Assembly (NCBI GenBank): GCA_030550095.1
Contig: JAUQQA010000001.1
Coordinates: 62,001-126,000, forward strand
Length of the DNA: 64,000 nucleotides
DNA from: Chloroflexota bacterium
GTDB taxonomy: Bacteria; Chloroflexota; Anaerolineae; J036; Brachytrichaceae
Reading direction: 5' to 3'
Position 1 is the first letter of the stretch. Each line of letters opens with the position of its first letter. The notes under the pieces are model-generated. The model had not been told where the DNA came from. It saw only the letters and a list, made by a program, of their open reading frames with translations, and searched no databases. The translations under genes were made by a program, and so were the position numbers. This document shows, piece after piece, positions 4,234 to 8,139 of the stretch.

Positions 4234-5175
4234 TCACACCCGACGCCGAGGGTCCAAGGCATCGCGCAAGCCATCGCCAAGCAAATTGAAGCCCAACACA
4301 GTGAGCATGATCGCAGCGCCGGGGAAAAAGACCAAGTGCGGCGCGTTGAACACGCTGTTGCGCTCCTCGCCCAACATCAACCCCCACTCTGGCGTTGGCG
4401 GCTGCGCGCCTAAGCCGAGGAACGAAAGCCCCGCTGCATCGAGGATCGCCGTTGCGATCCCCAAGGCGGCAACAACAACTAGCGGCGTGAGCGCGTTGGG
4501 CAAGATGCGCACGAAGAGAATGCGCACATCTGAAGCGCCCAGCGCACGTGAGGCTAACACGTAGTCCATCTCCTTCACGCTGAGCACACTCGCGCGCACC
4601 ACGCGCGCATACACGGGGATGGAGACAATCGCAACCGCGATGAGCGTGTTGATCAAACCTGTGCCCAGAACGCTCACGATCGCAATCGCAAGCAGCAAAC
4701 TGGGAAACGCCAACAGCACGTCCATCGCGCGCATGATGAGCGCATCTGCCCAGCCGCCAAGATAGCCAGCAACCGCACCCAGCAACGCCCCGATCACCAC
4801 TGCAACCCCTGTGGTCACAAAGCCGATCTGAAGCGACAGCCGCGCGCCATACACCACACGTGAGAACAAATCACGAAAGTTGCTGTCTAAACCCATGAGG
4901 AGTTGGGGCTTGCTTGGATCGCAGCCGAGCACGTGAATGCACGGAGGGCTGCGGCGGCGCAGCCCGGGCTGACGGATCTGCTGGTCGTAAGCGTAGGGCG
5001 CGATCACATCGGCAAACACCGCAACGAACACCAACGCAGCGAGGATGCTCATCCCCAGCTGCGCTGAGCGGTTCTGCAACAGGCGACGCAAAGCACGCGC
5101 CAATGGTGAGCGCCCGCGCTCAGCGCTCACGCGGAGCGCTGAGGCTTCAGCACGGGCAGGGGCGAGTTCTGCCAT
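4234..5175 (-). CDS. dppC: Peptide/nickel ABC transporter permease, DppC type
   Basis: Inner-membrane subunit (313 aa) of a family-5 oligopeptide importer. It begins with a cytoplasmic tail, a first membrane span (MSILAALVFVAVFADVIAPYA), the HVLGCDP..LLMGLD segment typical of DppC/OppC, then five further spans. The EAA loop that docks on the ATPase is present (EMDYVLASRALGASDVRI..ILPN). The ATG at 5175 lies 4 nt beyond the stop of dppB, so both are co-translated. The gene ends convergent to the NTF2-like gene 11 nt away. No ATP-binding subunit follows, so the transporter must borrow ATPases encoded elsewhere. Confidence 0.93.
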   Translation of the reverse strand: MAELAPARAEASALRVSAERGRSPLARALRRLLQNRSAQLGMSILAALVFVAVFADVIAPYAYDQQIRQPGLRRRSPPCIHVLGCDPSKPQLLMGLDSNFRDLFSRVVYGARLSLQIGFVTTGVAVVIGALLGAVAGYLGGWADALIMRAMDVLLAFPSLLLAIAIVSVLGTGLINTLIAVAIVSIPVYARVVRASVLSVKEMDYVLASRALGASDVRILFVRILPNALTPLVVVAALGIATAILDAAGLSFLGLGAQPPTPEWGLMLGEERNSVFNAPHLVFFPGAAIMLTVLGFNLLGDGLRDALDPRRRV

Positions 5176-5179
5176 TGAG

Positions 5180-6256
5180 TCAGTGTAGCCGAATCCGCGG
5201 ATCGAGAAACGCGTAGCTCACATCCACGATCAAGTTGATCACCACAAAGATCAGCGCGATGATCAGCGTGAAGGCTTGCACGACTGGATAATCGCGCGCG
5301 ATGATCGCGTCCACCATCTGCGTGCCAACGCCGGGCAAGCTGAAGACGGTTTCCGTGAGCACGGCCCCTGAGAGCAAGCTGCCCACCTGCAAGCCGACCA
5401 CGGTTACCACAGGCACAAGCGCATTGCGCAAGACATGGCGTAGAACGACCCACTGCTCAGCGAGTCCCTTCGCGCGCGCAGTGCGCACGAACTCCTGAGC
5501 CATCACGTCCAACATCGCGCCGCGCGTCATGCGTGCAATCACCGCGAGCGAGATTGTGCCCACAGCGACAGCCGGCAAGATCAAGTGCCGCAGTGCATCC
5601 AAGAACACGTCCCAACGCCCCTGCAACGCCGCATTGAGCAAAACCGTGTTCGAGAGCAACAGCAGCGCAAAACGCGCAACCCCTTGTGCGTCTTCCAAAC
5701 CCCACGCCTTAAGCAGGCTCGGCAAATCGGTGCCTGGTGTGAGTCGTCCAGAGGGGGGGAGCTGAAACGGCGTGCCGCGCAGCGCCAATGCAAAAACATA
5801 GGCGAGCATCAAGCCAAGCCAAAACACGGGCATCGAGACGCCGAGGTTCGCCAAGACCATGGCGCCGACGTCAACGAGCGAGTTGTGCTTCACCGCGCTG
5901 ATCACGCCAAGGAGCACGCCAAACGAAACAGCAAACAGCGTCGCGCATAGGGTTAACTCGAGAGTCATCGGCAGGCGTTCGGCGACGACTTCGACCACAG
6001 GGCGCCCCGTCTTAATCGAAGTGCCGAGATCGCCCTGCAACACGCTGCCCACGTAACGGACGAACTGCACTGGGATTGGGTCGTCCAAGCCAAAACGCTC
6101 CCGGAATGCCGCGCACTTTGCTTCTGTCGCCCGCTCGCCCAACATCACCTTGCAGGGGTCACCTGGGATCAAGCGCAGCAGGGTAAAAGTCACCAACAAA
6201 ATGCCCATCATGACGGGCATGAGCAACACGAGGCGACGCAAGACAAAGCGCAGCAT
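5180..6256 (-). CDS. dppB: Peptide/nickel ABC transporter permease, DppB type
   Basis: Partner membrane subunit (358 aa). The N terminus MLRFVLRRLVLLMPVMMG is typical of DppB; it is followed by LIPGDPCKVMLGERAT, the periplasmic loop with GDLGTSI and RLPMTLELTL, and a C-terminal permease core. The EAA motif EFVRTARAKGLAEQWVVLRH precedes the last spans, which end in YAFLDPRIRLH. I start at ATG 6256; an upstream reading to 6304 would run through the hairpin behind the binding-protein gene. It is the middle gene of the binding protein, dppB, dppC order. Confidence 0.93.
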   Translation of the reverse strand: MLRFVLRRLVLLMPVMMGILLVTFTLLRLIPGDPCKVMLGERATEAKCAAFRERFGLDDPIPVQFVRYVGSVLQGDLGTSIKTGRPVVEVVAERLPMTLELTLCATLFAVSFGVLLGVISAVKHNSLVDVGAMVLANLGVSMPVFWLGLMLAYVFALALRGTPFQLPPSGRLTPGTDLPSLLKAWGLEDAQGVARFALLLLSNTVLLNAALQGRWDVFLDALRHLILPAVAVGTISLAVIARMTRGAMLDVMAQEFVRTARAKGLAEQWVVLRHVLRNALVPVVTVVGLQVGSLLSGAVLTETVFSLPGVGTQMVDAIIARDYPVVQAFTLIIALIFVVINLIVDVSYAFLDPRIRLH

Positions 6257-6271
6257 GACGCGAACGTTAGC

Positions 6272-6306
6272 TGTTGGGTTGCCCGCCCAAAGCGGACAAC
6301 CCAACA
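6272..6306. other. Hairpin between binding-protein and permease genes
   Basis: A perfect 10-bp inverted repeat, tgttgggttg at 6272-6281 and caacccaaca at 6297-6306, continues after one mismatch into a 4-bp inner stem with a 5-nt loop. It lies between the binding-protein stop (6325) and dppB start (6256). No T-tract follows on the minus strand, so it looks like a 3'-end stabiliser or partial attenuator rather than a full terminator, as known for binding-protein-dependent operons. Confidence 0.7.
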
Positions 6307-6324: not shown

Positions 6325-8064
6325 TCACTTGCTGTTGAGGAAGGAGCCGAAGTAAGCCGTCCAGTACTCGAAAGTGCCGGTGCGGCCTTTGTGGTTCGGG
6401 TTAGCAGCATCCCACATCGCGGCGAAGGTTGCGATCACATCGCGGGCCTCGAATGTGGCGCCGTTGTGGAACTTCACCCCCTTGCGCAACTTGAATGTCC
6501 ACTCAGTGAGATCGGCATTGGACTCGTAGCTCTCCGCTAACGCGGGTTGGAGTTCCGCGGTGCCGATCTTGAAGGTGAGCAACGGCTCGAAGATCTGCGC
6601 GCACGCGGTGAAGGTTTCTCCGTCGCTTTCATCGGCGCAATACAAGCTGATTGGCTCGGCGTTTTGCACGAACACAAAGCGTTCGCGCGGCACCTTCATC
6701 GCGGCAAACACCAACGCGCTCACGGGGTTCACGTGCGCACCTTCCACGTCCGCGCGATAGGCATAGGCCACGCCGCCGTGTGCAACCGGGATCATCGGCA
6801 CGTACTTCTTGAGCAATTCGTTCACCTTGTCGTATGCCGCCTGGCGCTTTGCGAGATCAGCCGTGGAAGCGCCCTCGCGCAGCGCAGCCACGATGTCGTC
6901 ATAGGGCTTGCCGAATTGTTGGTTTTGCGGGCCAAAGTGATAGTCTAGGAAGTTAGTCGCATCGGGATAATCGGCGCCCCAACCGAGCAAGTAGAACGGC
7001 TCTTTGCCAGCGGTCACAGAGTCGAGGAACGCGCCAGACTCTTTCACCTCGATCTTCACATTGACGCCGATCTCCTTGAGCTGCGCTTGAATCTCCTGTG
7101 CGACAGCGCCGGGGTTTGGCAAGTAGCCGCGCACCACATCGCGGTAGGAGAGCGTGACTTCAAGATTTTCCTTGCCCGCTTCCTTGAGCAGCGCCTTGGC
7201 TTTCTCAGGGTTGTATTCGTGCCAAGGGATGTTTGGCGAGGCCCCCACCGCGAAGCTATCGGGGACGAAGCTAATCGCCACCTTCGAGCCGCGCGGATAG
7301 TAATCGCGCACGATGCGCTCGCGGTCAATGCCGTACGCAAACGCAAGGCGCACACGATCATCGTCGAAGGGCGGAATGGTGTTGTTGAAGCCGATGTAGA
7401 AGATGTTAGGCTGGCTGATCTCGACCAACTGCAACGCCGGGTCTTTCTCCACAGTCTCAAAATCCTCAGGCCCGACGTTGGCGATGCCATCGGCGTTCCC
7501 TGATTGCAGCTCGAGCAGCCGCTGCGCCGCCTCTTTAGACCAGCGTAGGACGACGGTGGGTGTCTTTGCCTTTTCACCCCAGTAGTCGCTGAACGCTTCA
7601 AAAGTGAGGCCTTCACCGCGCTTCCACTCGCGCAGTTTGTAAGGCCCTGTGCCTACTGGGTTGTTGCTGATCGCGTTGCTATCGCCTCCAGTCTGGTTGA
7701 GATAGTCTGAGTCAAGAATCGCAAACGAGTCGCCCGCAAGCTTGAACGGCAGCGCTGGATCAGGCGCACAAAGCGTGATCTTCACGGTGTAGTCATCCAC
7801 TGCCTCGATGGACTTGATGCTGCCACCGTAGTTGCAGTCTGGGGCTTCCACCTTAGTTGGCACTTCTGCTGCAGGCGCCGCGGTTGGCTCGGCAGGCGCG
7901 GCTGTGGGCGCTTCAGTCGGTGCCTGCGCGGGTGGAGGCGGCATGGTTGGTTCGGACGCAGGTGGCTGCGGAGCAGCGGTGGGCGTTGTGGCGCATGCAG
8001 AAAGCGCCAGCGCCGCCGTCGCAAGAAGCGAGAGCACACGCAAACGAGAGGCACTTGTTGACAT
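6325..8064 (-). CDS. Peptide ABC transporter binding lipoprotein, circularly permuted
   Basis: Family-5 solute-binding lipoprotein (579 aa). A signal peptide ends in the lipobox LSAC (Cys24), and a Pro/Thr/Ala linker runs to about residue 75. The fold then begins in the middle. Residues 77-455 correspond to the usual part from KSIEAVDDYTVKITL through NPVGTGPYKL, FDDDRVRLAFAYGIDRE and EYNPEKAKALLKEAG to the normal C-terminal end (VEGAHVNPV). Residues 463-579 hold what normally starts the mature protein: FVFVQNAEPISLYCADES, then IFEPLLTFK, PALAESYESNAD, WTFKLRKGVKFHNGATFEARDV and FEYWTAYFGSFLN. Compared with DppA order this is a circular permutation without loss; the folded part is about 500 residues, as usual. 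AGGAGG stands 6 nt before ATG 8064. It heads the dppB-dppC operon. Confidence 0.92.
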   Translation of the reverse strand: MSTSASRLRVLSLLATAALALSACATTPTAAPQPPASEPTMPPPPAQAPTEAPTAAPAEPTAAPAAEVPTKVEAPDCNYGGSIKSIEAVDDYTVKITLCAPDPALPFKLAGDSFAILDSDYLNQTGGDSNAISNNPVGTGPYKLREWKRGEGLTFEAFSDYWGEKAKTPTVVLRWSKEAAQRLLELQSGNADGIANVGPEDFETVEKDPALQLVEISQPNIFYIGFNNTIPPFDDDRVRLAFAYGIDRERIVRDYYPRGSKVAISFVPDSFAVGASPNIPWHEYNPEKAKALLKEAGKENLEVTLSYRDVVRGYLPNPGAVAQEIQAQLKEIGVNVKIEVKESGAFLDSVTAGKEPFYLLGWGADYPDATNFLDYHFGPQNQQFGKPYDDIVAALREGASTADLAKRQAAYDKVNELLKKYVPMIPVAHGGVAYAYRADVEGAHVNPVSALVFAAMKVPRERFVFVQNAEPISLYCADESDGETFTACAQIFEPLLTFKIGTAELQPALAESYESNADLTEWTFKLRKGVKFHNGATFEARDVIATFAAMWDAANPNHKGRTGTFEYWTAYFGSFLNSK

Positions 8065-8111: not shown

Positions 8112-8139
8112 ATCGAAGTAGCATCTTTTGGGCAAGGCG

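Follow-up and report, generated by a model that had tools for sequence, protein, structure and literature searches.

In GlnPQ-type transporters, tandem binding domains of normal order are fused to the permease. The only natural SBP with a permuted chain that we found in the literature is Tp0684 (MglB-2) of Treponema pallidum, a circularly permuted ABC binding lipoprotein placed in a "cluster Bc" (PMC4990184). Like the protein described here, Tp0684 is tethered to the membrane, and it still binds its ligand; it differs in having a type I, cluster B sugar-binding fold, with the cut and the joint elsewhere, and no series of independent cuts has been described for it. The closest described relative of our protein is DppA of SBP family 5 (PF00496, cluster C; structures 1dpe and 8z1y), in which R383 (R355 of the mature protein) binds the dipeptide carboxylate and D436 (mature D408) the amino group (PMC12136057; PMC8566422), both residues meeting the scoop loop of DppB (PMC12136057). 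The likeness to this family extends over every segment, at about 29-37% identity over both pieces of the chain, and the ligand-anchoring Arg and Asp and the DppB/DppC partners are common to both; however, in our protein the middle and C-terminal parts precede the N-terminal part, the native ends are fused, the anchor is attached at position 123 of mature DppA, and the tether is longer. As it matches family-5 proteins of cluster C in both sequence and structure, it fails the definition of cluster Bc (a cluster B fold with a permutation of the N-lobe).

The protein is encoded in the window, a 64,000-nucleotide stretch of a Chloroflexota genome, by an ORF of 579 codons running on the minus strand from 8064 to 6325; the plus strand across 6325-8064 is interrupted by stops. 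The chain begins with a signal peptide, MSTSASRLRVLSLLATAALALSAC (7993-8064), ending in the lipobox LSA-C24, which is retained in most complete relatives, and continues with a Pro/Ala/Thr-rich tether (residues 25-79; 7828-7992), both recognized from the sequence. Profile matches and the DppA alignment delimit the remaining two parts: the stretch of SBP family 5 from the middle to the C-terminus (residues 80-457, corresponding to DppA precursor 151-533; 6694-7827), with KSIEAVDDYTVKITL at residues 84-98 as predicted, and the N-terminal segment, which comes last (residues 458-579, DppA precursor 26-150; 6328-6693). The same strand carries genes for a DppB-like permease (5180-6304, identified from its ORF and sequence) and a DppC-like permease (4234-5175, identified likewise and by the position of DppC after DppB at related loci). 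According to the original prediction, the region encodes a circularly permuted family-5 protein in which a few residues (YGGSIKS/FGSFLNS) are doubled at the new ends. HMMs bear out the order of segments, whereas the doubling finds no support in the alignment to E. coli DppA.

The Pfam profile SBP_bac_5 matches the protein twice, first with profile positions 62-366 (residues 80-382) and then, C-terminally, with positions 1-56, for a score of 316 bits over the two stretches; a search of the genome with PF00496 placed these matches at 68919-69842 and then 68388-68555 of the contig, on the minus strand. Our own HMM of 514 positions, constructed from 72 relatives of normal order, matched the native protein at positions 137-511 (377 bits) and then 28-132 (105 bits, i-E 1e-33). 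When residues 458-579 were moved to the front in silico, a single match covering positions 30-509 of 514 was obtained, so that nothing is missing from the domain, as had been claimed. The same two blocks were recovered by phmmer against PDB and by alignment with E. coli DppA, the latter placing the cut between precursor positions 150 and 151 (122 and 123 of the mature protein) and the joint between positions 533 and 26 of the precursor, without an added linker. The order expected of SBP family 5 (N-terminal, middle, C-terminal) is replaced by middle, C-terminal, N-terminal in this protein and in its clade relatives. The cut-off of the NCBIfam DppA equivalog, a strict model for close DppA orthologs, is also missed (221.7 bits vs 1005). 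On sequence grounds, the window protein is a circular permutant that belongs to SBP family 5 by membership while failing its order criterion.

A normal N-terminal segment upstream of the gene would have refuted this interpretation. No second N-terminal SBP5 piece was detected among the ORFs beside the gene, the next one upstream being an SDR gene that starts at 8128, 64 bases away, and a genome-wide search with PF00496 revealed no orphan piece. It could still be argued that the order is an assembly or binning artefact, an assembler error at a repeat, since the assembly comprises 67 contigs and other SBP5 genes present in the genome might have confused it. However, the same order and cut recur in dozens of independently assembled genomes, among them four single-contig ones (G021, G036, G053, and G056), as well as in a 2.7 Mb contig of a Devosia isolate. 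We therefore reject this explanation as having practically no chance of being correct; the assembly breakpoint that had been named as a second refutation does not apply to an arrangement shared across the phylum.

Some 60 permuted relatives with the same order and cut, at 30-86% identity, were found in many families and several classes of Chloroflexota. Of 60 related genomes, about half contain collinear full-length homologs, with identities from 81% down to 30%; in a sample covering the whole phylum with its other classes, they are present in about 31 of 251 genomes (34 genomes were matched, of which two had only the normal-order part and one ended before the N-terminal segment). The original prediction had proposed looking for this order in other Chloroflexota, and such homologs, sharing the cut at identities down to 30% and residing partly in single-contig genomes, establish a true circular permutation. 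When all species genomes of GTDB were scanned, at least 80 loci were obtained. Among the matches listed with both pieces, permuted genes came from Chloroflexota (Caldilineales, Anaerolineales, Thermoflexales, and unclassified members) and from Devosia sp. FKR38, and about 70 of the listed loci, from many phyla, had normal order. Among the listed matches of a plasmid search there were only normal-order relatives, with two pieces each.

In a tree of reordered sequences, 34 permuted rows grouped as a single clade (93/95), which was recovered in 92% of bootstrap trees and lay within the normal-order proteins. FastTree analysis of 160 sequences kept together 65 of 65 permuted sequences for the N-terminal segment and 64 of 65 for the middle-C segment; the clade was less resolved in the tree of a short C-terminal fragment. 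A single origin of this family (family 1) is well supported by these sequence comparisons, strongly though not absolutely. The alphaproteobacterium Devosia sp. FKR38 has a permuted gene together with a full DppBCDF set (L101:5845-7518), and since its protein falls inside the Chloroflexota clade, beside a Chloroflexota row (100/99), the gene was most likely acquired by transfer. The permuted family is under strong purifying selection, with dN of 0.10-0.19 and dS above 1.4, at or near saturation. The permutation is ancient and widely distributed and apparently yields a functional protein, binding and transport data being absent.

The N-like segment at the C-terminus might instead have been captured from another SBP gene to replace a lost N-terminal segment, making the protein a chimera, a possibility that the authors of the Tp0684 study left open for their protein (PMC4990184). 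Parentage was assessed by ranking the identities of the N-terminal and middle-C pieces against 95 normal-order proteins. In the deep members L036, L031, L034, L035, and L037 the two rankings are correlated (rho 0.76-0.89), and largely the same Bacillota DppA-like proteins are top-ranked for both pieces, which indicates that both descend from the same parent gene. The weaker agreement in derived members (rho 0.35-0.57) leaves some room for the chimera, while the recovery of the permuted set as a clade in both segment trees counts against it. With both pieces tracking the same parents, we disfavour capture from another gene as an improbable origin and retain permutation of a single gene.

The AlphaFold model of the mature domain, which lacks any weak segment, has a pLDDT of 96.4 and a pTM of 0.92. 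Foldseek aligned about 385 of its 503 residues to DppA-type structures (1dpe, 3m8u, and 5f1q) with TM of 0.64-0.70, the best matches being DppA and GbpA; as the program aligns in chain order only, the superposition does not cover the relocated segment, and a remainder that is out of order is expected to give such a figure. By alignment, DppA R383 and D436 correspond to Arg312 (7129-7131) and Asp365 (6970-6972), and 30 of 31 sequences from the permuted family retain the pair. A DppB/C homolog adjoins 58 of 64 permuted members. The scoop loop of the DppB-like protein in the window retains the Glu-Arg pair (GER), and Glu with Arg or Lys occurs in 52 of 56 neighbouring DppB proteins. No ATPase genes adjoin the operon within the window; adjacent ATPases, as parts of full DppBCDF sets, occur in Devosia and Thermoflexales.

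The lack of adjacent ATPase genes in the window would also suit a lipoprotein that acts in sensing or scavenging and not in import, as would the fusion of some members to other SBPs and, in L238, the joining of the permuted SBP to an FHA domain and a transmembrane helix. Such a role nevertheless appears unlikely given the permease genes beside 58 of the 64 members, the conserved charges of the scoop loop, and the complete DppBCDF sets of Devosia and Thermoflexales. That the window protein works like DppA is inferred, with respect to both ligand and transport. Very probably, the protein arose by genuine circular permutation of a DppA-like dipeptide-binding lipoprotein (SBP family 5, cluster C) and is functional. 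Its native termini are fused directly to each other and its new ends lie between positions 122 and 123 of mature DppA; the permuted chain would still fold into the usual two-lobed clam. A dipeptide or short peptide, the ligand being inferred, may then be captured through the conserved Arg/Asp pair and passed to the adjoining DppB/DppC, in whose scoop loop the charged residues that contact this pair are retained; transport, the effect of the anchor and the evolutionary route are likewise inferences.

The lipid anchor of the window protein enters at position 123 of mature DppA, a position that, given the domain structure of OppA and DppA, is expected to lie in domain II (the small domain), the native N-terminus belonging to domain I. 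The shift of the anchor to the small domain is accordingly an inference from the location of the cut and from the domain limits of these proteins. Between the lipid cysteine and the domain, the median tether length is 56 aa in the permuted family vs 32 aa in normal-order SBP5 proteins of Chloroflexota and 19 aa elsewhere; the comparison uses fixed motifs and sets clade against clade, so it does not amount to many independent observations. The anchor and the longer Pro/Ala linker would now enter via a different lobe, and the new N-terminus may have become available for the attachment of further binding proteins, as seen in deep members. The authors of the Tp0684 study likewise tied the permutation to tethering (PMC4990184).

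Eight members (L025, L027, L030, L032, L035, L036, L038, and L096) have an SBP_bac_3 domain between the anchor and the permuted SBP5. A LivJ-like domain precedes the permuted SBP5 in L028, and L035 possesses both types. Several SBP domains per chain are also characteristic of GlnPQ-type transporters; the difference is that here the chain is a lipoprotein and the SBP_bac_3 or LivJ-like domain stands before a permuted SBP5. With the exception of the one in L096, which was acquired separately, the SBP_bac_3 domains of the fusions group in one clade (0.95) that branches in a similar way to the SBP5 part; for L031 and L026, an SBP_bac_3 of this type is encoded by a neighbouring gene of its own. It may be inferred that the association of SBP_bac_3 with the permuted SBP5 is old and was later lost in the lineage of the window protein. 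Other architectures include a CxxCH haem-binding (Dehyd-heme_bind) domain at about residues 121-185 of L027:250-3099, between the signal region and SBP_bac_3; an FHA-like domain and a transmembrane helix followed by the permuted SBP5 in L238:61-2547, which looks like a transmembrane peptide sensor; and SBP_bac_3 fused to an SBP5 of normal order (L249:1-2424), encoded beside a fused permuted gene in G032.

Further permutations of SBP family 5 were identified. The genome of the window protein itself encodes a member of family 2 (G000:C27:40577-42595; L006:115-2136), a protein of 673 aa with a lipobox, whose domain starts with HPILSDIRVRQAIAYC and ends with EHVDFNLNVR, the cut lying where the large lobe begins. 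Full-length family 2 proteins occur in about 20 genomes, and DppB adjoins 22 of 23 loci; these counts exclude L018, a truncated member of family 1. Family 3 is represented by a protein of 853 aa (L175:7195-9756; G053:C1:3775197-3777755), in which positions 146-354 of PF00496 stand ahead of positions 25-152, with a cut near profile position 146 and a C-terminal extension that has a weak Ig-like match. It is conserved in about 30 genomes, with DppB beside all 29 loci of 29. The permutation of family 3 is less certain, as the N-terminal match is weak (E 2.8e-8). In a tree of the stretch not interrupted by any permutation, families 2 and 3 are placed beside different normal-order proteins (0.98 and 0.99), which makes them separate permutation events.

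Damaged copies of family 2 exist. The split gene in G002 has a mid-gene frame break (between EYY and CQHR) and represents an error or decay, not a designed split; the copy at 2898 kb of G021:C1 has an internal deletion near a transposase and looks like a pseudogene. In the family 2 copy L176:4649-6016 the N half is deleted, near a transposase, and the gene is probably decaying.

A protein of Thermoflexales (L102:1164-2930) and its counterpart from another genome of the order (L236, 89% identical) belong inside family 1 (100/100), being cut at the family 2 site. In L102, the family 1 start YEAPNCDYGG is internal and joined to the old C-end via EVPPATATDTK; DppBCDF genes follow, and the model has a pLDDT of 91.8 and a pTM of 0.90. 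As judged from these features, the two are a re-permuted descendant of family 1. Connection of the old C-end with the N-end of the first permutation is the trace expected from the fusion of two tandem copies followed by trimming, and is the best evidence for a route of duplication, fusion and trimming. For the first event in the family of the window protein itself, an origin by duplication and trimming, as originally inferred, is plausible though not demonstrated. Elsewhere, two permuted SBP5 genes in tandem precede one DppBC pair (L098:5443-9309), an arrangement that could yield a further permutation.

To judge from the literature searched, recurrent permutation in SBP family 5 is new. The main claim of the original prediction holds and is larger in scope, the commonness of the arrangement and the existence of other permutations having been missed. 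In our opinion, Chloroflexota have probably opened the ring of this family at least four times, in three independent lineages at three places and once more by re-cutting a protein that had been permuted before, without loss of the ring closure or the peptide site. A large family from a common class of peptide-binding proteins is stably permuted in many genera, where previously a single cluster B protein was known in the literature searched. Profile tools conceal such proteins as two partial matches. The dependence of SBP function on the chain start and the anchor site becomes directly testable, the Devosia member providing a cultured host, and permuted SBP5 proteins are natural designs for permuted biosensors. 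If the repeated opening of the ring is true, the entry point of the lipid anchor, and the fusions made there, would be a variable and selected trait of peptide importers, with tandem binding proteins in one lineage.
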